Of a stretch of 64,000 nucleotides of DNA, positions 4,560-20,430 are shown piece by piece. The notes beneath the pieces were generated by a model that was not told the origin of the DNA, did not search any database, and saw only the letters and a list, made by a program, of their open reading frames with translations. The position numbers and the translations under genes are program-made. Source of the stretch: Fimbriimonas ginsengisoli Gsoil 348 (GTDB lineage: Bacteria > Armatimonadota > Fimbriimonadia > Fimbriimonadales > Fimbriimonadaceae); the NCBI GenBank assembly GCA_945881865.1, contig CAMCVK010000003.1, positions 186,001 to 250,000 on the forward strand. Direction: 5' to 3'. The first letter of the stretch is position 1. Each line of letters begins with the position of its first letter.

Positions 4560-6458
4560 ATGACAAAAGCCATCGACCGTGCGCTATGGAAGATCCCGCG
4601 ATGGCTTCATTACGGTATCGCGGTGGGGTTAGCCTTGGTGGCCATCTACGCGCGAATGTTCCTTGCGGGGCCTCTCGCGAACGCGTCCCCGCTCGCATTT
4701 ACCGTATTTGCGCTCTGCCTATCGGCCTATATCGGCGGCTTTTGGCCGGGCATCCTTAGTGGGGCCATCGGTTTTACGGTTAGCATCTACCTGTTCGTCG
4801 AGCCGCGGTTCTCCATGGGCGGCAAAAGCCCAGCCATGACGAACCAGATTTCCATCACGGTTGCGCTCGGGATCTTTATCTGCTTCATCGCCGGTCGCTT
4901 GCGGGATCAAGCCCTGCAAAACGCCCGACTTGCGGCCGAGCTCCATATTGACCGGACCCAGAGTCAGGACATCCTCGACAGCATTACGGACGCGTTTTAC
5001 GCCGTGAATAAGGACTGGTTAGTGCTCCAGACGAATCCAGCCTTCATCGCGAGAGTGCCGCACCGAACCAAAGTCGTCCCGGGGGTGAACCTTTGGGACT
5101 CCTACCCGGAGCTCGAAGAACCCAAGATGAAGAGGATGCTAACCGGAGTCATGACGAACCGAGTTGGCGACGAATTGGAGATCGAGGACGCAGAGACAAA
5201 GACATGGCTTCTTGTCCGCGCGTTTCCTACCGCCCTCGGCATGTCGGTGTTCATTTCCGACGTAAGCGAGCGAAAACAGTTCGAGCGGAGCCGCGAGCGA
5301 ATGCTCGCCGACGAGCGGGTCGCGCGTAGCGCCTCGGAAGAAGCGGGCCGAATCAAGGAAGACTTCCTGGCGACACTCTCCCATGAATTACGGACGCCAA
5401 TGACCTCGCTGATTGGCTGGGCGGAGCTTCTCAACCACGGCCCCGTAAGCGAGGAACGCTTGAAAGAAGGGCTCAACAGCATCGAGCAAAGCGCTCGGAC
5501 GCAGGCGAAAATGGTGGAGGAGCTGCTGGACCTCAGCCGTATCAATGCCGGCAAGCTCAAGATCGAGGCGGAATTTGTGACGCTTTCGGAACTGGCCCAC
5601 GAAGTGGCGGCAATCCACCACCCGGCCGCCCTAGCAAAGAATATCGAACTGCGGCTGATTGACGACGCTCCCGACGCCGTGGTGCGTGCCGACAGTGCGC
5701 GGCTGCACCAAGTGCTGAACAATATTCTTTCTAATGCGATCAAATTTTCGCGCCGCCATCAGCTGGTGATCCTTCGGACCTTTGTCGAAGCATCGTCGGT
5801 TTGCGTCTCCATCCAGGATCAAGGGGACGGCATTGATCCCGATTTTTTGCCGCATGTGTTCGACCGCTTTCGTCAGGCGAACGCAGGTACCGCGCGCCGA
5901 TACGGTGGACTTGGCCTTGGCCTCTCCATTGCGAAACAGCTGGTCGAGCTGCAAGGCGGAACCGTAACGGCCGAGAGCGAGGGCACGGGTAAGGGCAGCA
6001 CGTTCACGGTTCGGCTTCCGGTTGCGCCCACGTTGAACCTGAGGCACCGCTTTTCGAAAGGATCGGAGGTGATGGGCGGTTTAAACGGGACCCGCATCCT
6101 GGTGCTTGAAGATGACGACTCTACCCGGCTGTTTCTGACCCGGGTGCTAGAAGAACACGGTGCGGTTGTCTTGCCTTTTGAAACTGCCAAGGAAGCGCTG
6201 GACCAGCTGCCAACGGCCAACCCGGACGTGATCATTAGCGACATCGGTTTGCCCGAGACCGACGGCTACGCGTTCATGAGGGCCCTTCGTGCACGCGACG
6301 ACCGTTGGTGCAAACTCCCGTCGGTCGCCCTCACTGCCTTTGCACGCGACGCCGATCGAAGGGCGGCCACCGAAGCTGGCTTTAACGACTTTCACACCAA
6401 GCCAGTGAATACACCCGCCCTCGTTTCCACTCTCATTCGGCTTCTCAACGGCGGGTAG
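4560..6458 (+). CDS. KdpD-like hybrid sensor histidine kinase
   Basis: A 632-residue membrane hybrid kinase. Residues ~15-120 hold a DUF4118-type bundle of four TM helices (RWLHYGIAVGLALVAIYA onward), as in KdpD-family sensors. A PAS-like segment follows (ILDSITDAFYAVNKD). The HisKA box is FLATLSHELRTP, with the phospho-acceptor His near 275. The HATPase lobe has N-box NNILSNAIKFS, DQGDGID and GGLGLGLSIAKQL. A C-terminal receiver has the acceptor Asp near 561 (VIISDIGLPETDG) and the conserved Lys in HTKPVN. An in-frame ATG at 4431 would add 43 non-conserved residues, so 4560 is preferred. No cognate regulator is adjacent; the nearest is the OmpR/KdpE-type gene at 7980-8675. Confidence 0.9.
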   Translation: MTKAIDRALWKIPRWLHYGIAVGLALVAIYARMFLAGPLANASPLAFTVFALCLSAYIGGFWPGILSGAIGFTVSIYLFVEPRFSMGGKSPAMTNQISITVALGIFICFIAGRLRDQALQNARLAAELHIDRTQSQDILDSITDAFYAVNKDWLVLQTNPAFIARVPHRTKVVPGVNLWDSYPELEEPKMKRMLTGVMTNRVGDELEIEDAETKTWLLVRAFPTALGMSVFISDVSERKQFERSRERMLADERVARSASEEAGRIKEDFLATLSHELRTPMTSLIGWAELLNHGPVSEERLKEGLNSIEQSARTQAKMVEELLDLSRINAGKLKIEAEFVTLSELAHEVAAIHHPAALAKNIELRLIDDAPDAVVRADSARLHQVLNNILSNAIKFSRRHQLVILRTFVEASSVCVSIQDQGDGIDPDFLPHVFDRFRQANAGTARRYGGLGLGLSIAKQLVELQGGTVTAESEGTGKGSTFTVRLPVAPTLNLRHRFSKGSEVMGGLNGTRILVLEDDDSTRLFLTRVLEEHGAVVLPFETAKEALDQLPTANPDVIISDIGLPETDGYAFMRALRARDDRWCKLPSVALTAFARDADRRAATEAGFNDFHTKPVNTPALVSTLIRLLNGG

Positions 6459-6470
6459 GTAGGCATGAAA

Positions 6471-6502
6471 AACCCCGGAAGCCTTTAGAGCAACGGGGGT
6501 TA
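6471..6502. terminator. Convergent terminator hairpin
   Basis: AACCCCG at 6471-6477 pairs with CGGGGGTT at 6494-6501, with one bulged base. It lies between the kinase stop codon and the stop of the oppositely oriented BON gene and could end both transcripts. The flanking A and T runs are short, so efficiency is uncertain. Confidence 0.5.
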
Positions 6503-6511
6503 ATTGGGGCG

Positions 6512-6895
6512 TTACGAGCGGAGCTTGATCTCGTTCTGCAGGTCGAGGGTCGTGCCATCGTCCTTCATTACTTCCCGCGCCGTGGTCTCGGCGAGAGCGA
6601 CATGCTTAGATTCTTTCACCGTGCCGCGAAGGACGATGGCCTTCTCGGTTTGCTCGATCTTGATGTCGTTTTCCTTGTCGTTAAGGAACGGATTCGCGGA
6701 GAAGGCAACCTGAATCTTAGGGATGATGCTGAGCGCGACGCCGGCCTTTTTGGTCGTGGCTCGGACGTCCCGTCCGGCTTGATCGGCATCCTTCGAAACG
6801 CCCCGGGCGGTGTCGTCGCAACCTCCCAAGCTGATCACGACCAGCGTGAGGCATGCAGCGACGAGCGATCCAACGACCGGGAAGAACGACTTCAT
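6512..6895 (-). CDS. BON-domain lipoprotein
   Basis: A 127-residue periplasmic lipoprotein. The signal peptide ends in a lipobox (LGGC, Cys near 26), so it should be lipidated. Residues ~75-126 form a BON domain (DNDIKIEQTEKAIVLRGTV-type strand, then REVMKDDGTTLDLQNEI), a small alpha/beta module found in osmotically inducible, membrane-attaching proteins such as OsmY. It begins inside the stop codon of the DUF1328 gene (ATGA overlap), so it is translationally coupled to it. It is the last gene of the ECF-sigma-linked cluster. A stress or envelope role is inferred from context. Confidence 0.85.
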   Translation of the reverse strand: MKSFFPVVGSLVAACLTLVVISLGGCDDTARGVSKDADQAGRDVRATTKKAGVALSIIPKIQVAFSANPFLNDKENDIKIEQTEKAIVLRGTVKESKHVALAETTAREVMKDDGTTLDLQNEIKLRS

Positions 6896-7062
6896 ACCGA
6901 ACTCCTTCGGGTTCGGCTACCGATGAACGAGAAGATGAACAGGATGAGGAAGACGAAGAACAAGCCCTTGGCCAGCGAAGCGACCGCCGAGGCAATGATT
7001 CCGAATCCCAGCAGCGCGGCGATCAGCGCCAGCACAAAGAAGACTGCGGTCCAATAGAGCAT
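6892..7062 (-). CDS. DUF1328 (YtjA-type) small membrane protein
   Basis: A 56-codon gene reading MLYWTAVFFVLALIAALLGF, then a second hydrophobic stretch ending in GSRTRRSSV. Two TM helices around an aromatic/glycine-rich turn are typical of the DUF1328/YtjA family, which is often linked to stress-induced envelope genes. Its ATG overlaps the TGA of the upstream 52-residue gene (TGATG), and its TGA overlaps the ATG of the BON gene (ATGA). The three genes are therefore a tightly coupled translation unit. No biochemical function is established for the family. Confidence 0.85.
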   Translation of the reverse strand: MLYWTAVFFVLALIAALLGFGIIASAVASLAKGLFFVFLILFIFSFIGSRTRRSSV

Positions 7063-7220
7063 CAGTACTTGCTCCCGGCTTTCTGTGGCTCCTTCGAACT
7101 GTCGGCCTCAATGACCGTGGGGAGTGCCTCGATGGGCGGCGCCTTGACGGCCGGCGCCTCAACGCTGTCGAGGTCTTTCAAGCTTTCGACAAACAGGGTC
7201 GACATATCTCGTACTTTCAT
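7062..7220 (-). CDS. Small hypothetical protein of the ECF-sigma cluster
   Basis: A 52-residue soluble protein starting MKVRDMSTLFVESLKDLDSV and rich in Ala, Pro and Glu. The start at 7220 is chosen because GAGGA lies 7 nt upstream; an in-frame ATG at 7253 has no such site. The stop overlaps the DUF1328 start (TGATG). I do not recognise the family. Its place between the sigma gene and the membrane genes suggests a co-regulated accessory or regulatory peptide, but nothing in the sequence shows how it works. Confidence 0.65.
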   Translation of the reverse strand: MKVRDMSTLFVESLKDLDSVEAPAVKAPPIEALPTVIEADSSKEPQKAGSKY

Positions 7221-7235
7221 GGTTTTGTCCTCAGG

Positions 7236-7251
7236 GGTTTCTTTCGAAACC
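7236..7251 (-). promoter_or_regulatory. Tetraloop hairpin in the 5' leader
   Basis: The minus strand reads GGTTTC-GAAA-GAAACC, a perfect six-pair stem closed by a GNRA-type GAAA tetraloop. It lies 16 nt upstream of the small-gene start at 7220, just before its GAGGA site. It may stabilise the mRNA 5' end or tune translation. Confidence 0.4.
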
Positions 7252-7310
7252 AATGTCTTCTATCCGTGGCGAAGTAAGGGCGCTGTAATCCCGCGCAAGG
7301 GAAAAATGAG

Positions 7311-7324
7311 GAAGTCGTAAGAAA
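7311..7324 (-). promoter_or_regulatory. ECF-cluster shared motif, copy 2
   Basis: The minus strand reads TTTCTTACGACTTC, matching 13 of 14 bases of the copy at 7959-7972. Weaker similarity continues downstream (a pyrimidine stretch like TTTTTCCC at equal spacing). It begins 3 nt after the sigma gene stop and about 90 nt before the small-gene start at 7220. It is a candidate promoter element read by the ECF sigma factor encoded next to it. Confidence 0.45.
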
Positions 7325-7326
7325 CC

Positions 7327-7896
7327 TCAAGAACTGGCGGTGGCGTATTCGTTCTGAAGGTGAACCGACGTGTACTTGCTTCGGGCCACCTTCAAAAGTC
7401 GGCTGTAGCGGGATTTGACCGTGCCCAGAGGAACGCCAAGTTGCTCCGCCACGTCGGCATAGGGCCGCTCTTCCACCGCGATCATTTTTAGGATCAACTG
7501 GTCCGAGCTGGAAAGCTGGGAGAGTGACGCGACCAAAATCGGATCGGTTTCCTTTCGGAGCAGGATCTCTTCCGGCGAGATGTCCTTAGCGGCTGCCCGG
7601 TCCATTGGATCCTCGAAGCCTTCGTAATCCGGTGCAATCGTCGTGACGCGGGAACGCCGACGACGCAACATGCTGAGATACTGGTTCCGGGCAATTACCT
7701 TGAGCCAGACTTCGAACGGCGACCGCTGGTCGAACGTCTCGTAGAGCCGATAGGCCCTGATAAAGGCGTCTTGGGTGATATCTTCGGCGTCGCTGGAGTT
7801 GCCGCAAAGCGACATCACGTAGTTTCGGACCCGTTTGTAGTGGATGGAGAAGAGCTGGTCGAAGGTTGCTGCGCTGATCGTGGCCATAAGGTTCAT
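7327..7896 (-). CDS. ECF-type RNA polymerase sigma factor
   Basis: A 189-residue sigma-70-family factor with regions 2 and 4 only. Region 2 spans about 12-80 (NYVMSLCGNSSDAEDITQDAFIRAY, then SPFEVWLKVIARNQYLSMLRR). Region 4 spans about 125-178 (LSSSDQLILKMIAVEERPYA, then VAEQLGVPLGTVKSRYSR), the helix-turn-helix that reads the -35 element. No anti-sigma gene is adjacent. The downstream neighbours on the same strand are three small envelope-type genes. The shared motif before this gene and before those genes suggests autoregulation plus control of the small operon. The start could be ATG 7896 or ATG 7887. Confidence 0.92.
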   Translation of the reverse strand: MNLMATISAATFDQLFSIHYKRVRNYVMSLCGNSSDAEDITQDAFIRAYRLYETFDQRSPFEVWLKVIARNQYLSMLRRRRSRVTTIAPDYEGFEDPMDRAAAKDISPEEILLRKETDPILVASLSQLSSSDQLILKMIAVEERPYADVAEQLGVPLGTVKSRYSRLLKVARSKYTSVHLQNEYATASS

Positions 7897-7958
7897 TCCC
7901 GTGGCGGGTTGATCTATTCAACTCTTTGGCCCATTAGAGGCAGGTTGGAAAGAACCTC

Positions 7959-7972
7959 GAAGACGTAAGAAA
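7959..7972 (-). promoter_or_regulatory. ECF-cluster shared motif, copy 1
   Basis: The minus strand reads TTTCTTACGTCTTC, about 63 nt upstream of the sigma-factor start and 7 nt after the regulator stop codon. It differs at one position from copy 2 at 7311-7324. It is a candidate autoregulated ECF promoter element. Confidence 0.45.
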
Positions 7973-7979
7973 AGGGTAG

Positions 7980-8675
7980 CTATATCGCCAAGCGGTAGCC
8001 GACCCGGTGCTCGGTGAGGATGAGCTTCGGCGATTCGGGGGTTGGCTCAAGCTTCTTTCGCAGATAGCCCATGTACACGCGCAGGTACTGCGAATCCTCT
8101 TGGTATTCCGCGCCCCAAACCTCGCGGAGGAGCTGACGGTGGGTGACGACTTTACCGCAATGCTTCACCAGCAATGAGAGGAGCTTATATTCCAGTGGCG
8201 TAAACTTGATGAGTTCGTCGTTCAGCCAAACGTAGCGATGGGCGAAGTCGATTTTTAGCGGCCCAGATTCAAAAATTGGGGACTCGGTTTCTCGCAGTTC
8301 GATATGTCGCACGGCGACCCGCAGCCGCGCCATCAGCTCGCCAACGGAGAAAGGCTTCGTAATGTAATCATCGGCGCCGGCATCCAACGCGCGGATTTTG
8401 CCGTCGTCGTCGCTTCGGCCCGACATGATGAGGATAGGAGTGCGGCACCATTCCCGCAAGGCAATGACGACATCGACGCCGTCGCCGTCGGGCAGTCCAA
8501 GGTCGAGCAGGATGATGTCTGGACGCTTTTCGATGGCGGCGGCCAGCCCTTGGGCTCCCGTGCTCGCCTCGATGAGGCGGAACCCAGAGTCTCGAAAGTA
8601 GGTTCGTAGGAGCGAAGTGATGGCCGCGTCGTCCTCGACGAGAAGCACCTTGTGCGTGAGGTTTCCGTTAGACAT
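7980..8675 (-). CDS. OmpR/KdpE-family response regulator
   Basis: A 231-residue two-component regulator. The receiver domain (about 8-122) has the acidic pocket VEDD, the phospho-acceptor Asp near 58 (IILLDLGLPDGDG) and the conserved Lys in DDYITKPF. A winged-helix DNA-binding domain follows (about 140-229), with the signature LTPLEYKLLSLLVKH-like core and EDSQYLRVYMGYLRKKLE, which closely resembles KdpE. An in-frame ATG at 8729 would add 18 atypical residues, so 8675 fits the family better. It lies about 1.5 kb from the KdpD-like kinase, a possible but unproven pairing. No kdpABC genes are visible. Confidence 0.9.
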   Translation of the reverse strand: MSNGNLTHKVLLVEDDAAITSLLRTYFRDSGFRLIEASTGAQGLAAAIEKRPDIILLDLGLPDGDGVDVVIALREWCRTPILIMSGRSDDDGKIRALDAGADDYITKPFSVGELMARLRVAVRHIELRETESPIFESGPLKIDFAHRYVWLNDELIKFTPLEYKLLSLLVKHCGKVVTHRQLLREVWGAEYQEDSQYLRVYMGYLRKKLEPTPESPKLILTEHRVGYRLAI

Positions 8676-8812
8676 AGTTCCGGCGGGGCCCTCTCCACTT
8701 TGCAAGGGGATTGAAATCCCAAAACTCAAAAAGAATGCCCTACGGACAGTTTGACGGCATTCATGACGGAAAGGCCGATTTTTGCGAGTTCCCTAGCAAA
8801 AAAGACCCAAAC

Positions 8813-9220
8813 TTAACCTGGCGCAAGCACGGTTGCGGACGCACAAGCAGGTCCTCCTCGTCGATCTTTACCATTGACATGAATCGCGTACACAGATTCG
8901 TGTCCAGGAAAAAGAGACACGGTGTCTAAGAACACTTTAAGCCGCCGGAACATGGTGCGCTCGCCGCCGGCGGTTCCGAGCCAAGCCAGATAGATAAAGC
9001 GTCGTCCATCGGGTTGGCGGTTCACCGCCGGTCCCCATCCTTGCAACGTTCCGCTCTTGTCTGGCCGGATTTCCACCGGCACGTCGAACCGCAGGTTGGC
9101 GCCATCTGTCGCCGCCGGGGGAAAGGTTCCGTCTTTCGTTGACAACACCAACTCGATCTCGTCGTAGGGGGCAAAGGACGTCGGAGCATCAACGACATGA
9201 ATATGTATCAGGCTCATCAT
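8813..9220 (-). CDS. DUF5990 family protein
   Basis: A 135-residue cytoplasmic protein of unknown function. The order of motifs (a beta strand LIHIHVVDAP, an acidic DGANLRFDVPVEI, GPAVNRQPDGRRFIYLAWL, and RRLKVFLDTV) matches the DUF5990 pattern, in which a hydrophobic strand is followed by GP..QG/P..RF.YL.W. An open frame extends to 9307, but homology begins at 9220 or 9217. The last ~35 residues (HESVYAIHVNGKDRRGG) extend beyond the family core. The gene stands alone, divergent from rtcB. Confidence 0.65.
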   Translation of the reverse strand: MMSLIHIHVVDAPTSFAPYDEIELVLSTKDGTFPPAATDGANLRFDVPVEIRPDKSGTLQGWGPAVNRQPDGRRFIYLAWLGTAGGERTMFRRLKVFLDTVSLFPGHESVYAIHVNGKDRRGGPACASATVLAPG

Positions 9221-9377
9221 GGATAGGTCCAAAGGCGCACACGCACCCGAAACATTGGCATAATGATTCATCTCCGCAGGGAGCTTGGACCATGACGCGA
9301 TTTTCACCTTAGCACACCCACTTCTCGGCTAGCGCCGAGATAGGTTTGCTACGCGTTTCCCAACTCAGTACTCCCTC

Positions 9378-9400
9378 GTGGACGCATGCGATGCGTCCAC
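9378..9400. promoter_or_regulatory. Perfect dyad upstream of rtcB
   Basis: GTGGACGCAT (9378-9387) and ATGCGTCCAC (9391-9400) form a perfect 10-bp inverted repeat with a 3-nt centre. It ends 23 nt before the rtcB ATG and 12 nt before its AAGGAG ribosome binding site. It could be a protein operator or an mRNA hairpin in the 5' leader. Confidence 0.55.
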
Positions 9401-9423
9401 CTATCCGCTTGTAAGGAGATTTT

Positions 9424-10581
9424 ATGCAAGTTATCAACAACATCCCTGTTTGGGGTGAGCCCGTCATCGACGGTGCCGTCGCACAAATGAGGAACGTGGC
9501 CCAGTTTGCCGAGAAGGCAGCCCTGATGGCCGATCACCACGTTGGCTATTCGATGCCGATTGGCGGTGTGGTGGCCTACCGCGAGCACGTGAACCCGGCC
9601 GGCGTCGGTTATGACATCGCCTGTGGAAACAAGGCGGTTCGTACCGACATGCCGGGACGCGAGCTTCGGCGGAAGATCCACCGCATCATGGACGACATTG
9701 AAAAGAAGATCAGCTTCGGCATCGGCCGGGCGAACCAGGAGGAAGTTGACCACGACGTGTTCGACGACGAGGCCTGGGGGCTCTACCCGGCGGTGGCGAA
9801 GAAAGACAGCGCCCGCGCCCAGTTGGGCACCGTGGGCAGCGGTAACCACTACGTGGACCTCTTTGTGGACGAAGAGGACTGCGTTTGGATTGGCGTTCAC
9901 TTTGGTTCGCGCGGCCTTGGCCACACGATTGCGTCGCACTTCATGGAAGAAGGGGACGACCGTGACAACCCGGGACGGCTGCTTCACGAGCGATCGAACC
10001 TGGGAGCCGACTACTTGGCGCAGATGGCCCTGGCGGGTCGTTACGCCTATGCCGGGCGCGACTGGGTTTGTGGAAAGGTCGCGCGGATTCTGGGCGCGAA
10101 GATCAAAGATGAGGTCCACAACCACCATAACTTTGCGTGGCGTGAAACCCACGACGGCGTGGAGTATTGGGTGGTTCGAAAAGGCGCGACGCCGGCGTTT
10201 CCCGGCCAGCGTGGGTTTGTCGGCGGATCGATGGGCGACATCTCGGTGATCTTGGAAGGCGTCGAGTCGGAGCACGCTTCGGCGTCTTTGTATTCGACCG
10301 TCCACGGTGCCGGGCGCGTCATGTCGCGCACGGAAGCCGCCGGGAAGCGGCGCGGAAAGAAACGCGAAGGCGGTTCGATCTCGCGCCGGATGATGGAAGC
10401 TTGGGTGAAGGAGACGGGAGTCGAGCTGCGCGGAGGCGGCACGGACGAATCTCCCCACTGCTACAAGCGCCTGCCGGACGTCTTGGCCTGCCATGAAGGC
10501 ACGATTCGCATCGTGCACATGCTCACGCCAGTGGGCGTGGCGATGGCCGGCGACCACGAGTTCGACCCTTTTCGGGACTAG
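9424..10581 (+). CDS. rtcB: RtcB-family RNA-splicing ligase
   Basis: A 385-residue RtcB ligase, which joins 2',3'-cyclic-phosphate or 3'-phosphate ends to 5'-OH ends of RNA using GTP and Mn2+. The metal ligands are recognisable: the Cys of GVGYDIACGN, the His of GSGNHYVDLF, the His of HFGSRGLGH and the His pair of HNHHNFAWRETH. The guanylated His lies in STVHGAGRVMSR. The C-terminus carries the conserved DESPHCYKRLPDVL and HMLTPVGVAMAG. AAGGAG lies 5 nt before ATG. There is no RtcA or RtcR neighbour and no archease, so its regulation differs from the enterobacterial system. It converges on the GH26 gene with only 6 bp between stops. Confidence 0.93.
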   Translation: MQVINNIPVWGEPVIDGAVAQMRNVAQFAEKAALMADHHVGYSMPIGGVVAYREHVNPAGVGYDIACGNKAVRTDMPGRELRRKIHRIMDDIEKKISFGIGRANQEEVDHDVFDDEAWGLYPAVAKKDSARAQLGTVGSGNHYVDLFVDEEDCVWIGVHFGSRGLGHTIASHFMEEGDDRDNPGRLLHERSNLGADYLAQMALAGRYAYAGRDWVCGKVARILGAKIKDEVHNHHNFAWRETHDGVEYWVVRKGATPAFPGQRGFVGGSMGDISVILEGVESEHASASLYSTVHGAGRVMSRTEAAGKRRGKKREGGSISRRMMEAWVKETGVELRGGGTDESPHCYKRLPDVLACHEGTIRIVHMLTPVGVAMAGDHEFDPFRD

Positions 10582-10587
10582 TCCCCA

Positions 10588-11967
10588 TTACTTGACATTG
10601 AAGACCTTTCGGCTGGTGTAAACCCGCCGGAGGTCTTCGTCCTTCATGGCGCTTGCCCCCAAGGGGCCGGTCCAGCTGACAAAATACGACCAACGCACGC
10701 CAAAACGCAACATGCGGTCGACTTCGGGAGCTTGGCCATACTCGGTGAGGGCGAGCAGCTTTTTGCCGTTGAATCTTGAGAAGAGATCGTCCCAGGTCGA
10801 TGCGGTGGCGTCTCGTCGGTCGGCCGGATACAGGTCGGCACCGATGATATCAACCGAATCATCGCCCGGATACCACTCGGGCCGCACCGAATTCCACACC
10901 CAGATCAAGTTGTGCAACTTGTGATGACTGATCAGACGATCGCGCATGAGTAGCCACAACTGCTTACAAGGCGCGGGACCCTTCGCTCCCACCCAGAACC
11001 AGCCGCCCTCGGCTTCATGCAACGGCCGCCACAGTACCGGGACGTCGGCTTTGGCGAGTTTCTTCAGTTCGGCGGCGATGACGTCGATGTCGCGGATAAG
11101 GAGTTTGTAGTCTTCACCGCTCGGGTCGGCCAGTGCTTTCTGCACGTCAAATGTCGTCGCATTGGTGTAGAACCCCTTGTACCAGCGGGCATCCACGGTG
11201 CGACCATTTTCGGTGATTTCGGCATCGATGAGATCCTTCGGCGCGTTCCAGTGCCAGCTATAGGTGACCATTTGCCCTGCTTTTGCGCGCGCAATTGTCC
11301 GCTCGGTTTCGCCGCGTGGGATTCCACCGCGCGCTACGCGGCTCGGCGAATAGTCCATAAAATCATTGCCGAATACTGCAGGCATCTTTCCAGTTTTCGC
11401 CTGCACATGGTTGTTTTCTTTTGCGTCGTACTGGCCCGAGAACATGCCGTTTCCATAGGCGGCGACCAACCTCCGGAACAAGCGACGGGCGGCCGGGGTC
11501 GCGTTGGAGTCCGACAGCGTTGCCGGAGGTCGCACGAGGCGCGGCGATTTGGCGGACGGCAAAAGCTCGATGTAGTCCAGGTCGTAGTAGCCCCAGCCTT
11601 TCTTCACCACGAACTGCGTTGTCGGTTTATTGACTTCAACCCTTCCCACGGTCACTCGCGCAAAGCTGGCGTTTGCGCTAGCGGCGGTTCTTGGGAGCAT
11701 GCCGGAAAGCCCAAAACCGTCCACGACGGCATCGAAGCCTTTCTCGCCGTTCGGCGCGGAATAGCCCACCACAAGGTCATAGATGCCTTTCGGCAGCTTG
11801 GCCGACCAGGTGAGTTGGCTGGCGTCTTTCGTGAGATCGGTGACGTACCCGGTTCCGGAGAATCCGGCCATTTGGGTTGCCACCCGGACATCCGTCAGCT
11901 GGGCAGTTTCTGCCTCGAGCCGCGTCGAACCGGCAACCAACGACAGAAAAATGGCAGTGAGTAGCAT
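10588..11967 (-). CDS. Secreted GH26 beta-mannanase with CBM35-like domain
   Basis: A 459-residue exported glycoside hydrolase. A signal peptide covers about 1-19. Residues ~20-138 form a beta-sandwich like CBM35 (AQLTDVRVATQMAGFSGTGY, ending YYDLDYIEL). The GH26 barrel follows: the acid/base Glu is near 318 in WRPLHEAEGGWFWVG and the nucleophile Glu near 409 in LALTEYGQ. GH26 enzymes with this arrangement usually cleave beta-1,4-mannan. A secreted hydrolase here suggests use of plant or microbial polysaccharide. The 3' end abuts the rtcB stop. No sugar transporter is adjacent. Confidence 0.9.
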   Translation of the reverse strand: MLLTAIFLSLVAGSTRLEAETAQLTDVRVATQMAGFSGTGYVTDLTKDASQLTWSAKLPKGIYDLVVGYSAPNGEKGFDAVVDGFGLSGMLPRTAASANASFARVTVGRVEVNKPTTQFVVKKGWGYYDLDYIELLPSAKSPRLVRPPATLSDSNATPAARRLFRRLVAAYGNGMFSGQYDAKENNHVQAKTGKMPAVFGNDFMDYSPSRVARGGIPRGETERTIARAKAGQMVTYSWHWNAPKDLIDAEITENGRTVDARWYKGFYTNATTFDVQKALADPSGEDYKLLIRDIDVIAAELKKLAKADVPVLWRPLHEAEGGWFWVGAKGPAPCKQLWLLMRDRLISHHKLHNLIWVWNSVRPEWYPGDDSVDIIGADLYPADRRDATASTWDDLFSRFNGKKLLALTEYGQAPEVDRMLRFGVRWSYFVSWTGPLGASAMKDEDLRRVYTSRKVFNVK

Positions 11968-12049
11968 GCGTAAACCTCGGCGTTTCCCGGACAGGATATC
12001 ACGGTAAATCGGCCACTAGGCATAAAGTGATCTTCGTCACTCTGCCCGG

Positions 12050-12078
12050 TTGCATGCCCCGAAGACCCGCCGTATACT
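12050..12078 (+). promoter_or_regulatory. Promoter of the HEFAH metallopeptidase gene
   Basis: A -35-like TTGCAT (12050-12055) and a -10 TATACT (12073-12078) are separated by exactly 17 bp. The start codon at 12100 follows 21 nt after the -10. The same TTGCAT hexamer with a 17-bp spacer recurs at 43960-43988. Confidence 0.65.
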
Positions 12079-12099
12079 ATTAAAGCGAGCGCGAACCCG

Positions 12100-15282: not shown

Positions 15283-17112
15283 ATGAGCGAAGTCAAAATT
15301 AAGCCACTAGGGAAAGTCATTGCCCTCATTTTGGTTGCCGGGCTGGGCTTTGGAGCCTATAACTTGGCGACACGGGGCGGGCTTGGCGGCCTCATGCCGG
15401 CGGCACCGGTACGCGAGTCGAACGTACCCATCAAGGCAGATCTGCCGCAGATCAACAACCAGCCCGTCCCGACATCGGTGAAGGATTTGACCCTTCCGAC
15501 TTCGGACAAATTTGAGGGCGATGGCCCGCGGGTGCGGTGGCTGCACTGGGCCTGGAACGCGCAGATGGGCGTGTTCTTCGCTAACGGTGGAAAGTCCACG
15601 ACCAAGGGTTCTTTGATGGCCGAGCGCGGCGTCGCGATTGACTTCACGCGGCAGGATGACGTCTCGAAGATGCAAGAGTCGCTCGTGGACTTCGCCACCG
15701 AGCTAAGCCGCGGTAACAAGCAACCAACGCGCGGAGCCCACTTCGTGACCATCATGGGCGACGGTTCGGCGGCGTTCCTCGCGGGACTCAACGAGACGCT
15801 GAGCAAGCTTGGTCCGGAGTACACGGCGAAAATCGTCGGCGCGATCGGCTTCTCTCGCGGTGAAGACAAGTTTATGGGACCCAAGAGCTGGGCCAGCAAT
15901 CCTGCCGCCAGCAAGGGCGGCGTGGTCTCTGGCTACCTGCGCGACGGCGACTGGAACATCGCCATGAAGTGGCTGGGCGACAACAGCATTAAGAACAACC
16001 CCGACGAAAAAACCTACGACCCCGACGCGCTGAACTGGGTAGCGGCGAACGACTATATCGACGCCGCCGAGAAGTACATCGCCGGCTACTCCGAAAGCCG
16101 ACCGGTCGTCAAGAACGGTAAGCGCACCGGCGAGACGAAGAAAATCACCGTGCAGGGTGTCGTCACCTGGACCCCGGGCGACGTGAACATCGCCGACAAG
16201 AAGGGCGGCCTTGTTTCCATCGTCTCGACGAAGGAGTACAACGCGCAGATGCCCTGCGTTGTCATTGGCATTGATAAGTGGATGCAAGAAAACAAAGACA
16301 CGGTGAGCAACATGCTCGACGCGGCCTTTGTTGGCGGGGATGCGGTTCGGTCGAGCTCGGCCGCACTTCGACGGGCCGCCGAAATTAGCGCCGACGCCTA
16401 CGGCGAGAAAGACGCCAGCTACTGGGAGCGATATTACAAGGGAACGGTGGAGAAGGACCGTACCGGCCAGCTAGTCGAGCTTGGCGGTTCTTCCGTGAAC
16501 AACCTCGCCGACAACATGCTGCTGTTTGGCCAGGTGAGCGGATCGGCAAACATCTTCGCCAGCGTCTACCGAATCTTTGGCGACATCGTTAAGGACCAGT
16601 ATCCAACTCTCCTGCCGACCTATCCAGCCGCCGAGAAGATTCTGGACATGCGCTACCTAAAGGCCGTGGCACAAACCCAAAAGTTTGCAGAGGCATCGCT
16701 TAAGGGAAGCGAAATGAGCGGTGCCCCAACCGCAAAAACTGCTGGGCCGAAGCGACAGATCAGCGCAAAGGTCTACAACATCGTGTTCGATACCGGTCGG
16801 GCAACCTTCCGGCCGCAATCGACCGCCGTGCTCGAGGGCCTAGTCCGCGACCTTTCGGTTTCGACGAACACGGCCGTTGAGATCAACGGGCACACCGACA
16901 ACGTCGGAAACCCGGCGTCGAACATGGCGCTTTCCGAGGCGCGCGCATTCGCTGTGAAGCAATGGCTCAACCGACGCGCCGCCAGGCTATTCCCGGATGG
17001 CCGCGTGCAGGTGGTTGCGTACGGCTCAACGAGACCTCTCGTACCCAACGGCTCGCCCGAGGGCCGAGCGAAAAATCGACGCGTCGAGATCAAGGTTAAG
17101 GCCGCCCAGTGA
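15283..17112 (+). CDS. Solute-binding domain fused to OmpA peptidoglycan-binding domain
   Basis: A 609-residue envelope protein. An N-terminal TM anchor or signal (about 9-28, VIALILVAGLGFGAYNLA) precedes a large domain (about 70-450). Its order of motifs resembles periplasmic binding proteins of the nitrate/taurine type: VRWLHWAWNAQMGVFFANGG, then IAMKWLGDNSIKNN, then the TYDPDALNWV block. The C-terminal ~110 residues are an OmpA/MotB domain (VYNIVFDTGRATFRPQS, INGHTDNVGN, LSEARAFAVKQWL, GRAKNRRVEIKV), which binds peptidoglycan. It is the first gene of a five-gene operon with an ABC permease and ATPase. A tethered solute-binding or sensor function is inferred; the ligand is unknown. ATG 15283 is preferred over an upstream TTG. 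Confidence 0.85.
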   Translation: MSEVKIKPLGKVIALILVAGLGFGAYNLATRGGLGGLMPAAPVRESNVPIKADLPQINNQPVPTSVKDLTLPTSDKFEGDGPRVRWLHWAWNAQMGVFFANGGKSTTKGSLMAERGVAIDFTRQDDVSKMQESLVDFATELSRGNKQPTRGAHFVTIMGDGSAAFLAGLNETLSKLGPEYTAKIVGAIGFSRGEDKFMGPKSWASNPAASKGGVVSGYLRDGDWNIAMKWLGDNSIKNNPDEKTYDPDALNWVAANDYIDAAEKYIAGYSESRPVVKNGKRTGETKKITVQGVVTWTPGDVNIADKKGGLVSIVSTKEYNAQMPCVVIGIDKWMQENKDTVSNMLDAAFVGGDAVRSSSAALRRAAEISADAYGEKDASYWERYYKGTVEKDRTGQLVELGGSSVNNLADNMLLFGQVSGSANIFASVYRIFGDIVKDQYPTLLPTYPAAEKILDMRYLKAVAQTQKFAEASLKGSEMSGAPTAKTAGPKRQISAKVYNIVFDTGRATFRPQSTAVLEGLVRDLSVSTNTAVEINGHTDNVGNPASNMALSEARAFAVKQWLNRRAARLFPDGRVQVVAYGSTRPLVPNGSPEGRAKNRRVEIKVKAAQ

Positions 17113-17921
17113 CCCCGGCCGGCAGTCGAAAGGCCGCCGGCCTTTTGCAAGCCTTTTCGCCGAACAAGATCCTCTCGCGTTCGGCGATGAACATCATTGT
17201 TGCCACGCAGGTCGTCGTGTTCCTCCTGATTTGGGCGTTCGCCTCGTTTAAGGTGCTCCCCAAGCCGGGCGAGGTCTTTGCTTCCATCGGCGATCTTTGG
17301 ACGAACCAGGGCCTTGGGCAAGAACTGCTTTCCAGCCTTTCGCTCAACTTTGAAGCGGTTTTGATTTCGGCGGTTCTCTCGATCGGGCTCGCCTATCTTA
17401 CGGTTTTGCCGTTCTTTCGACCGTTGGTGGCCGCTATCGGAAAGGGCCGATTCCTCAGCATGGCGGGTTTCACGCTGGTGTTCACGCTGTTGGTTGGCGG
17501 CGGTCATCCGCTAAAACTGTCTTTGCTGGTTTTCGCAATGACGGTGTTCTTCGTCACATCGATGGCCTCCGTTGTTGCCGAGATCCCGAAGGCCGACTTC
17601 GACTATGCCCGCACCCTACGAATGAAGGAGTGGCGCGTCGTGTGGGAGGTTGTGGTTCTTGGTACGGTCGATAAGGCTTTCGAAGTTCTGCGGCAAAACG
17701 CGGCGATCGGCTGGATGATGCTGACCATGGTGGAGGGCATTTACCGCGGTGAGGGCGGGATCGGCGCGCTGCTATTGAACCAGCAGAAGTTCTTCAAGAT
17801 GAGTGAGGTTTTTGGAATTCAGATCATCATCCTCATCGTCGGACTTTGCCAAGACCTGATCATCGGGGCATTACGCCGGTTCGTTTGCCCCTACGCTACG
17901 CTGACATTGGAGCGCAAGTAA
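17109..17921 (+). CDS. ABC transporter permease (nitrate/sulfonate type)
   Basis: A 270-residue inner-membrane permease with about six TM segments. The cytoplasmic coupling loop is recognisable as the EAA-like stretch DYARTLRMKEWRVVWEVVVLG. The C-terminal region KMSEVFGIQIIILIVGLCQDLIIGALRR matches the SsuC/TauC-type closing helices. It starts at a GTG overlapping the stop of the OmpA-fused gene (GTGA), which shows translational coupling. It presumably pairs with the ATPase encoded next (3-bp gap). Direction of transport is inferred to be import from the family. Confidence 0.82.
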   Translation: MTPAGSRKAAGLLQAFSPNKILSRSAMNIIVATQVVVFLLIWAFASFKVLPKPGEVFASIGDLWTNQGLGQELLSSLSLNFEAVLISAVLSIGLAYLTVLPFFRPLVAAIGKGRFLSMAGFTLVFTLLVGGGHPLKLSLLVFAMTVFFVTSMASVVAEIPKADFDYARTLRMKEWRVVWEVVVLGTVDKAFEVLRQNAAIGWMMLTMVEGIYRGEGGIGALLLNQQKFFKMSEVFGIQIIILIVGLCQDLIIGALRRFVCPYATLTLERK

Positions 17922-17924
17922 GTC

Positions 17925-18758
17925 ATGCTTCGCGAAAAAATCGCCTACGACGTTCGCGAGTGCCTGCTCTCGGTGAAGGGTGTGAACCTCAATCTTGGAG
18001 GAAGACCAATCCTGAGGGACGTCAACTTTGAGGTTCACAATCTTTACCGCCCGGGCATGCTTCAGGGCCAGGTCGTCGGCTTGCTTGGGCCGAGCGGAAT
18101 GGGGAAAACCCAGCTGTTTCGCATCCTTGCGGGCCTCAATCCTCCCGACTCCGGCCACGTCCTCATCGGCGACCCGCCGGTTCCGGTCGCTGCCGGGATG
18201 GTGGGCGTCGTTGCCCAACACTACCCACTGCTGCACCACCGGACCATTCTGGGAAATCTGGTTGTCGCGGGTCGACAAGCCGGCCAACCCGCAAAGGCCG
18301 CCGAGACAGAAGCGCAAAGGCTTCTGGAGGTTTTCGGCCTGAAGGAACAAGGGGAGAAGTATCCGGTTCAGCTCTCCGGCGGACAGCGGCAACGGGCCGC
18401 CATCGCCCAGCAATTCATGTGTAGCAACCAGCTGATGCTGATGGACGAGCCGTTTAGCGGCCTCGACCCGCTGGCGCTGGCCCGCATGTGTCAGTTCATC
18501 AAGGACATTGCGCAGACCGATGAACACAAAACTTTTGTCATCGTAACGCACGACATTGCGTCTGCCATCGAAGTGTGCGACACCCTGATGGTTCTGGGTC
18601 GAGATAAGGGGCCAGACGGCCACTTCATCCCGGGTGCAAAGATTCAACAAACCGTGGACCTCATCGCGCGGGGGCTGGCCTGGCACACCGGAATCTCGCG
18701 CACTCCCGAGTTTCACGCCGCCGTAAATGAAGTCAAAGATCTCTTCGCCCATCTCTAG
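17925..18758 (+). CDS. ABC transporter ATP-binding protein
   Basis: A 277-residue ABC ATPase. Walker A is GPSGMGKTQ (about 59-67), the Q-loop lies in VVAQHYPLL, the signature is LSGGQRQRAAIAQQ (about 150) and Walker B is LMLMDEPFSGLD, with the switch His in VTHD. It has a slightly unusual N-terminal insertion (VHNLYRPGMLQGQ) between strands. It would energise the permease encoded immediately upstream. Third gene of the operon. Confidence 0.93.
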   Translation: MLREKIAYDVRECLLSVKGVNLNLGGRPILRDVNFEVHNLYRPGMLQGQVVGLLGPSGMGKTQLFRILAGLNPPDSGHVLIGDPPVPVAAGMVGVVAQHYPLLHHRTILGNLVVAGRQAGQPAKAAETEAQRLLEVFGLKEQGEKYPVQLSGGQRQRAAIAQQFMCSNQLMLMDEPFSGLDPLALARMCQFIKDIAQTDEHKTFVIVTHDIASAIEVCDTLMVLGRDKGPDGHFIPGAKIQQTVDLIARGLAWHTGISRTPEFHAAVNEVKDLFAHL

Positions 18759-18791
18759 CCTGCGGCACGTCATAATTTGGGCCAACCTGCC

Positions 18792-19751
18792 GTGAAATTC
18801 GACCCATCGTTGCCGATCTACCGAAGCCTGAAGTACCGGCTTGGGGAGGCGTTCAAGGAAGGCCCGAACCTCGTGGCCCTGGCAGGTGCCGTTGCGATTT
18901 CCGCCGCTACGCTGAATCCATTGCCGCTCATCGTGGCGATGGTGGCCGAGGCCGCGTATTTGCTGTTCGTCCCCGACTCAAAATGGTACGAGCGTCGCTT
19001 GCAGGCGCGGTTCGACAACGAAGTTCAGGCACGCCGTCATAACCTGAAGGTCCAGGTTTTCCCCATCGTCCGCGCGCAGATCAAGCAAGAGTTTGGACGG
19101 CTAGAGCAGGTTCGCGGCCAAATCGAAGGTCAGTCCCGCGGGGAGGAGCCGTGGTTCCGCGAGGCACTGCGCAAGCTCGACTTCCTGATGGAAAAGTACT
19201 TGCAGTTCGCCCAGAAAGAGGCGCAGTTTGCCACGTACCTAGCTTCGGTTTATGGCGAGGTTTACGCGCAGCTTCCCGAGCAAGAGCGACGGAAGATGAT
19301 GCCGCCAATTCTGCTAAACACGGTTCCGCCAAAACGACGGGGCCGCGACGAAGAAGGGCCGAACGACCGCGACGTCATCAACCTGACTCCGGAATGGGTG
19401 GATGAGGTGACCGGTAGCATCGGCCAGTTCTATGAATATGAGCTCGAGCAACTAGCGATCTCCATCGAAGCCGAGACGGTGGTGCCCAACAAGAACCTGA
19501 TGGAGAAGCGGCAGCAGATCATCTCCCGCCGCCGCGACTTCATCGCGCGGGTAAGCCAAATCATGAGCAACCTTGGCCTCCAAATGCGGCTGATGTCCGA
19601 TACGTTTGGCCTCATCAACGACGAGATGCGCGCCCGTTCGCCGGAGCAAGTTCTTTCCGATATCGATGATGTTGTTCTGCAGGCGACCTCGCTTACCGAA
19701 GCGATTGATGAGATTACGCCGATGACCGAAGTGGTGGGGACGCTCGCCTAG
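18792..19751 (+). CDS. Membrane-anchored coiled-coil protein of the OmpA/ABC operon
   Basis: A 319-residue protein of unknown family. A hydrophobic hairpin near residues 23-58 (VALAGAVAISAATLNPLPLIVAMVAEAAYLLF, given as two helices) would insert in the membrane. The remaining ~260 residues are charged and helical, with coiled-coil character (for example the LQARFDNEVQARRHNLKV, LEQVRGQIEGQ and QIMSNLGLQMRLMS regions). The start is GTG 18792, or TTG 18777. It sits 33 bp after the ATPase and 10 bp before the last gene of the operon. Its constant companionship with the transporter would argue for a cytoplasmic scaffold or regulator; that is inference. Confidence 0.7.
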   Translation: MKFDPSLPIYRSLKYRLGEAFKEGPNLVALAGAVAISAATLNPLPLIVAMVAEAAYLLFVPDSKWYERRLQARFDNEVQARRHNLKVQVFPIVRAQIKQEFGRLEQVRGQIEGQSRGEEPWFREALRKLDFLMEKYLQFAQKEAQFATYLASVYGEVYAQLPEQERRKMMPPILLNTVPPKRRGRDEEGPNDRDVINLTPEWVDEVTGSIGQFYEYELEQLAISIEAETVVPNKNLMEKRQQIISRRRDFIARVSQIMSNLGLQMRLMSDTFGLINDEMRARSPEQVLSDIDDVVLQATSLTEAIDEITPMTEVVGTLA

Positions 19752-19761
19752 AGAGATAGCC

Positions 19762-20430
19762 ATGAGCATTAAGAATCTTCTTCGTAAAGCCGCCCAGTTG
19801 GTGGTTGAGTTGCCACCCGAACCAGAACCGGTTCCCGCGTCGGAACCGATTTTCCCCGCCGAAGTTGCGCCGCCGGTGCCGGTCGTGACAAAGTCGGTTG
19901 AGCAGATCGTTCGCGAAGCGCCGGGCCCGAACCTGGACCAGATCGTGGTGCCGCCGATCCCGGTCACGGCGCCCTCGGCTCCAGCCGGGCATGTGGATTT
20001 TTTGGCGGTTTACCAGAGCGCGGGTTTGGCTCCGGCGGCTTTCTCCGCCGAGCAAGCGTTTGACGTGATTGCCTCGTTGCCGCAGGAATTGCCCTTGGAG
20101 GCGCGCCGCGCGGCGGTTCACGCGACGATCTCGGCGATGGGCCGCGCGATGGGCGTGAACACCCAGGGCGTGATTGCCGACGCCGGGAGAAAGGTCGCCG
20201 CGCTGTCTGCCTATGAGGACATGCTGACGCACCAGACCGAGAGCTACGTCGCGACGATTCAGGCGAAGATCGCCGACTTGGAGGCGCAGATTGCCCTGCA
20301 TCGCGAAGATATCGAAACGACGCGGAACATGCTGGTCTCGGCGGTGCAGGCGTGCGACACGGAATCAGCCCGGCTGGACGACGTCCTGGAGTTCTTCACC
20401 CTGGACAGCCAACCGAGCCGAAACGCTTAG
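19762..20430 (+). CDS. Pro-rich/coiled-coil protein, last gene of the OmpA/ABC operon
   Basis: A 222-residue soluble protein. Residues ~15-78 are a proline- and valine-rich linker (LPPEPEPVPASEPIFPAEV and similar). A helical domain follows (about 78-150), then a C-terminal coiled coil (YVATIQAKIADLEAQIALHR and onward). I do not recognise the family. It has a GAGAG-like site upstream and ends the operon, 6 bp from the convergent neighbour. A flexible adaptor linking the membrane coiled-coil protein to a partner is a reasonable guess, not shown. Confidence 0.68.
   Translation: MSIKNLLRKAAQLVVELPPEPEPVPASEPIFPAEVAPPVPVVTKSVEQIVREAPGPNLDQIVVPPIPVTAPSAPAGHVDFLAVYQSAGLAPAAFSAEQAFDVIASLPQELPLEARRAAVHATISAMGRAMGVNTQGVIADAGRKVAALSAYEDMLTHQTESYVATIQAKIADLEAQIALHREDIETTRNMLVSAVQACDTESARLDDVLEFFTLDSQPSRNA

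Follow-up and report, generated by a model that had tools for sequence, protein, structure and literature searches.

A wall-tethered ABC transporter operon with two helical partner proteins in Armatimonadota and huge phages: a candidate envelope-maintenance machine

We describe a five-gene operon in a 64,000-nucleotide stretch (hereafter the window) of the genome of Fimbriimonas ginsengisoli Gsoil 348 (assembly GCA_945881865.1, contig CAMCVK010000003.1, positions 186,001 to 250,000), a 3.2 Mb genome of the Armatimonadota. The operon lies among ordinary chromosomal genes and encodes a fusion of a solute-binding domain to an OmpA-like domain, an ATP-binding cassette (ABC) permease, an ABC ATPase, a membrane-hairpin and helical protein (P4) and a coiled-coil protein (P5). 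An earlier note, made from the letters alone, proposed that these proteins act as one machine, naming as contrary results the independent occurrence of the last two genes and a failure of the binding-domain assignment; neither occurred, and the proposal of a single machine is well supported. As to its function, we infer from comparison of sequences that it may be an ATP-driven, wall-anchored complex for envelope maintenance rather than a plain importer, a reading that we prefer while giving it somewhat less than an even chance.

Five genes kept together in Armatimonadota

All five genes are on the forward strand. The fusion protein gene (15283..17112, 609 aa) overlaps the permease gene (17109..17921, 270 aa, GTG start) by the 4 bp GTGA, and the ATPase gene (17925..18758, 277 aa) follows after 3 bp. 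P4 (18792..19751, 319 aa, GTG start, with an in-frame TTG at 18777 as a possible alternative start) comes 33 bp later, and P5 (19762..20430, 222 aa) a further 10 bp downstream; the reading frames, overlap and gaps given in the earlier note were all correct to the base. Substitutions in all five genes are of the coding type, third codon positions varying most. In relatives the five genes keep their order together at 40-85% protein identity, and the genes flanking the operon vary between sub-lineages. This conserved linkage is far beyond chance. Scans for sigma-70 promoters and for terminators gave nothing above shuffled sequence, and Rfam and tRNA searches of the window gave no match.

P4 is present in 17 of 61 related genomes. 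A full-length fusion occurs in 16 of these 17 and was seen in none of the other 44, and the whole operon stands in order in 15; in one further genome (G035) the fusion, permease and ATPase genes lie about 12 kb from P4 on the same contig. The exception to co-occurrence, G017 (locus L034), has P4 alone between the LepA and cyclophilin genes. Because these same genes adjoin the full operon in relatives, G017 has probably lost the other four genes through a natural partial deletion. The check that the earlier note had proposed, whether the last two genes go with the transporter, thus came out in its favour, the single exception being a decayed locus. A GTDB-wide scan with P4 found 28 loci, nearly all labelled Armatimonadota, Abditibacteria or unnamed bacteria, while the scans with the fusion and P5 covered the Armatimonadota, IMG/VR, annotated phages and plasmids. 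Neighbourhoods were drawn from simple open reading frame calling, so that the automatic tallies miss some true genes overlapped by a longer frame on the opposite strand (e.g., the ATPase of the window operon and L033's P5, both confirmed separately).

These counts bear directly on the idea that P4 and P5 simply ride along behind a transporter operon to which they are unrelated. The lone P4 of G017 would suit it, as would G035 and the Abditibacterial genome G299, in which P4 and P5 stand apart from the transporter and, in the latter, the fusion is on another contig. However, the G017 locus is a remnant of one that relatives have in full, the genomes of G035 and G299 retain the fusion at another site, and the same pairing recurs in bacteria and phages across three gene orders. 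The linkage counts already refute the passenger explanation, to which we accord a negligible probability.

In three loci of Abditibacteria type (L051, L056 and L064) P4 and P5 are directly followed by a true PspA/IM30 gene, which in L056 and L064 forms a sixth gene of the operon; this argues for PspA as a member of the wider system even alongside P4.

A binding protein held at both membrane and wall

The fusion has a single N-terminal transmembrane segment (residues 12-30), a binding domain of NMT1/TauA type that profile comparison places at about residues 80-470, and a C-terminal OmpA-like peptidoglycan-binding domain (residues 499-605; Pfam PF00691 match at residues 502-599, E 9.5e-18). In 14 aligned fusion proteins D539 (in HTDNVG) and R554 (in LSEARA) of the OmpA domain are invariant, the conserved Asp and Arg of OmpA_C-like domains being, as we take it, the residues that bind diaminopimelate. 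K7, G10, K11, G20 and G24, within the transmembrane region or just before it, are likewise invariant across 14 homologs, which suggests that the segment is retained as an anchor and not cleaved as a signal peptide.

The binding domain of the window protein has no Pfam match, and the profile of its own type found none in the PDB. Some relatives of the window genome (e.g., G036) carry a shorter fusion in an otherwise equal operon, and the two types, about 520 and about 600 aa, align end to end in profile-profile comparison (329 columns, probability 99%, E 7e-18). Five of the six short-type members match Pfam NMT1/THI5, and the short-type set matches TauA structures (6ssy, E 2.8e-12). These profiles place the domain in the NMT1/TauA class of type-II binding domains, much as the earlier note had read it. 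The permease, of NrtB/TauC-like type, scores 26.2 bits against Pfam BPD_transp_1, just under the cut-off of 26.4, and matches the NrtB structure 8w9m at E 0.008. The ATPase matches Pfam ABC_tran (E 3.7e-24) with all of its motifs intact, namely Walker A (GPSGMGKT), signature (LSGGQRQR), Walker B (LMLMDEP) and H-loop (THD).

These parts are closest to importers of taurine, nitrate, bicarbonate and thiamine precursors, and together with the intact ATPase motifs they make a dedicated importer the obvious rival to envelope maintenance. The tethered binding protein would then hold its solute, whether a small organic acid, a sulfonate, an oxyanion or a vitamin precursor, at high local concentration by the permease, P4 and P5 would only cluster or gate the transporter, and phages would use the set to feed the infected cell. 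We regard this as somewhat less likely than envelope maintenance, since known importers of the class need no membrane-scaffold partner, and a diffusing or lipid-anchored binding protein would suffice. The comparison with NrtABC, TauABC and SsuABC is instructive in both directions: they have in common with the window operon an NMT1-class binding domain, an NrtB-like permease and an NrtC/TauB-like ATPase, but the window's binding protein is anchored by a transmembrane segment and bound to the wall through its OmpA domain, and two extra conserved helical proteins accompany it.

The double attachment also recalls the MotB and PomB stators, which likewise join an inner-membrane helix to an OmpA-like peptidoglycan-binding domain, although in the fusion these are separated by a solute-binding domain, and there is no MotA partner. 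One could imagine a mechano-transmission device of FtsEX kind, in which the ABC pair moves no solute but uses ATP to transmit motion between a scaffold in the cytoplasm and a periplasmic partner bound to the wall, so as to sense turgor or control wall enzymes. A fusion held at membrane and wall as in the MotB stator, with conserved residues in its transmembrane segment unlike those of a cleaved signal peptide, fits this well, but a binding domain conserved over its full length would be needless in an inert lever, and no wall hydrolase is linked to the operon; we consider such a device improbable.

The five-part set in huge phages

Beyond anything in the earlier note, the set proved to be widespread in huge phages, where the protein in the P4 slot is PspA-like. 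The short-type fusion of G036 matched Bacillus phage G, fifteen Prevotella Lak records and a 735-kb phage, and inspection of those loci revealed the other four parts adjoining it. Scans of IMG/VR with the short and long fusion types gave 58 and 67 loci, respectively, and after removal of near-copies the phage count stands at 76 non-redundant loci with a full-length fusion. All five parts lie within 5 kb on one strand in 64 of the 76, several of the others being cut by contig ends. Only three gene orders occur: P5-P4-fusion-permease-ATPase (47 loci), permease-ATPase-P5-P4-fusion (16 loci, the phage G type) and fusion-permease-ATPase-P4-P5 (a single locus). P5 and the P4-slot protein are kept in 71 of the 76 phage loci, whereas in several no ATPase was found, a pattern that speaks against a dedicated importer. 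Loci L070, L117, L119 and L077 have the permease, P5, P4 and fusion with no ATPase gene found nearby; an ATPase encoded at another site, or one taken from the host, may serve there. Phage G itself (L066, 5803-9008) has tandem fusions, gp249 and gp250, that are mutually diverged. Viral contigs called with table 4, probably artefacts of high GC content, were left uninterpreted, and an Acinetobacter 'phage' MD-2021a contig (L071) was excluded because it looks like an ordinary bacterial chromosome.

The P4-slot proteins of phages resemble PspA with an added N-terminal membrane segment, and several of them reach the Pfam PspA_IM30 cut-off. A mixed profile of these proteins and the Abditibacterial genes matches Vipp1/PspA structures at about 1e-6, and the two phage P4-slot subtypes match each other at 95%. 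PspA/Vipp1, the bacterial ESCRT-III, is therefore matched by the phage proteins and by the extra Abditibacterial gene, but not by the P4 of the window, and the phage proteins differ from it in their membrane segment. Since the host of phage G is Gram-positive, the OmpA domain is best seen as a peptidoglycan anchor and not as part of an outer membrane. More generally, the set is kept in unrelated huge phages of Gram-positive (phage G) and Gram-negative (Lak) hosts as well as in chromosomes, which probably reflects a useful role at the inner membrane and wall for which no outer membrane is needed.

One phage locus is of the window's own type. L229, at 6447-12080 of a 478,840-base viral contig (G291), has the genes in the same order as the window operon; its P4 belongs to the Armatimonadota family (E 3e-74) and is accompanied by a P5 (E 1e-44), and its contig also carries genes for a terminase, an RNA ligase/tail-fibre catalyst, a clamp loader and GroEL. 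This phage possibly infects Armatimonadota. It surfaced only through its fusion protein, the Armatimonadota P4 profile having given no match against viral contigs. A tree of the fusions, built by a quick method, groups the 21 bacterial and 2 phage proteins of the window type in a fully supported clade, with the bacterial short type outside it. The supported branches force at least two changes of carriage between phage and bacterium, in one direction or the other; long branches make the deeper joins unsafe.

These observations would also suit a phage or anti-phage device that Armatimonadota took over from phages, for instance one that stabilises the inner membrane and so excludes superinfection: the set is very frequent in huge phages, the window-type fusion shares its fully supported clade with phage proteins, and a 479-kb phage has the window operon type. 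The bacterial copies, however, have ordinary chromosomal genes as neighbours, with no defence genes seen beside them, and pass down within sub-lineages, and the fusion tree allows transfer in either direction. We think a device of this kind decidedly improbable. The recurrence of the five-part set in the largest known phages (phage G, Lak and the 735-kb phage) suggests to us a single unstudied machine that acts on the bacterial envelope.

The P4 and P5 proteins

Neither P4 nor P5 has a Pfam or NCBIfam match above family cut-off. In the single-chain model of P4 (pLDDT 84), helices 24-40 and 44-62 form a membrane hairpin, after which the chain continues as an all-helical bundle. A fold search with this model against the PDB and viral model libraries gave no match at E 0.001 or better, and BAR-like proteins, ClyA and designed helical bundles were dropped as candidate folds (E 0.09 or worse, with Z scores typical of helical models). 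P4 thus appears to be a separate new family, distinct from the PspA-like proteins of phages. Glu53, at codon 53 of the gene at 18792-19751 of the window, lies inside the predicted hairpin and is invariant in 34 of 34 aligned proteins, which is unusual for a mere anchor.

P5 is modelled (pLDDT 86, single chain) as a small helical domain with one 80-residue helix. Bacterial P5 proteins and those of both phage types belong to a single family, with profile comparisons at 99, 96 and 97% and iterated profiles that converge. In the viral structure library its sole confident match is gp246 of phage G, which occupies the equivalent slot of the phage operon, and in the PDB it found coiled-coil noise only. 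A conserved amphipathic N-terminal helix was considered for P5 and dropped, its significance in the window and L019 not extending to phages. No TelA domain (PF05816) was matched in P5, nor did P5 profiles match the TelA of Vibrio that is described below.

Comparison with known systems

The general kind of system, a PspA-type protein with an ABC transporter and a binding-protein/OmpA gene, is already known. Ravi et al. 2024 (PMC11237479) describe PspA operons of this composition (e.g., OGG56892.1), propose that they couple membrane remodelling to solute transport, and call the control of PspA homologs without an AAA+ partner unknown. Those PspA/TM-Snf7 operons, as presented there, likewise have an ATPase, a permease and a PBPB+OmpA fusion beside a membrane-remodelling protein, but they include PspA and an AAA+ ATPase where the window has P4 and P5. 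An AAA+ ATPase is absent among the five window genes, and the flanks are not conserved. A PspA-type protein is encoded in the operons of the phage and Abditibacterial relatives, and not in that of the window, whose P4 has neither a Pfam match nor a profile link to the phage PspA-like set. P5, the Armatimonadota P4 and huge phages are not described in the accessible text of that paper, nor is the module mentioned in the accessible text of four papers on huge phages (PMC7162821, PMC8346664, PMC12607003 and PMC8297831). In the open-licence literature we did not find the five-part module, the P5 family, the Armatimonadota P4 family or the spread in huge phages, though an earlier mention elsewhere is possible.

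A parallel set occurs on the Vibrio alfacsensis plasmid pSEA2 (L178, 3792-13151), with two binding-protein/OmpA fusions, an ATPase, a permease, a VWA protein, a transmembrane/coiled-coil protein and TelA; one of the fusions is named 'phosphate ABC transporter substrate-binding/OmpA family protein' by NCBI. Like the window operon it combines fusion, ATPase and permease with a transmembrane/coiled-coil protein and a soluble helical partner, but its TelA and transmembrane protein do not match P5 and P4, and it has a VWA protein and a second fusion besides. TelA contributes to the resistance of Listeria to cell-wall-acting drugs (Collins 2010, as cited in PMC12791056).

A proposed wall-anchored machine

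Our proposal is that the five genes would encode one inner-membrane complex fixed to the cell wall. In such a complex the binding domain may sample a small solute or signal at the wall, and the permease/ATPase pair would supply an ATP-driven step. P5 might couple the ATPase to a scaffold of P4 or PspA-like protein on the inner face of the membrane, and this scaffold would stabilise or remodel the membrane at the wall-anchored sites. In bacteria the outcome would be envelope maintenance of the phage-shock-protein kind, and in huge phages a host envelope kept intact during a long infection. The suggestion of envelope maintenance draws on the link to PspA, the parallel Vibrio set with TelA and the proposal of Ravi et al. 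The earlier note had thought of a cell-wall-bound channel, for which we found no footing; a membrane-scaffold partner is more likely.

Several points weigh against this reading. The P4 of the window aligns with the phage PspA-like proteins (hhalign) at a probability of 7% over the transmembrane part only, and otherwise under 1%. Without a sequence link to PspA or a confident fold for P4, the ESCRT-III-like part belongs to the relatives and not to the window. Moreover, the intact ATPase and binding domain suit plain import equally well, so that the importer is a serious rival. In its fullest form the reading becomes that of a membrane-scaffold machine, anchored to the wall and driven by ATP: an ESCRT-III-like or analogous polymer would be powered or positioned by an ABC transporter whose binding protein is tethered, and the machine would be common in the largest phages and have been exchanged between them and Armatimonadota. 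We offer this form tentatively, as less likely than not.

The system links membrane proteins of PspA/ESCRT-III-like type with an ABC transporter, and it may bear on how PspA homologs that have no AAA+ partner are controlled. Within the unexplained gene load of megaphages, it also offers a target of the size of a single function.

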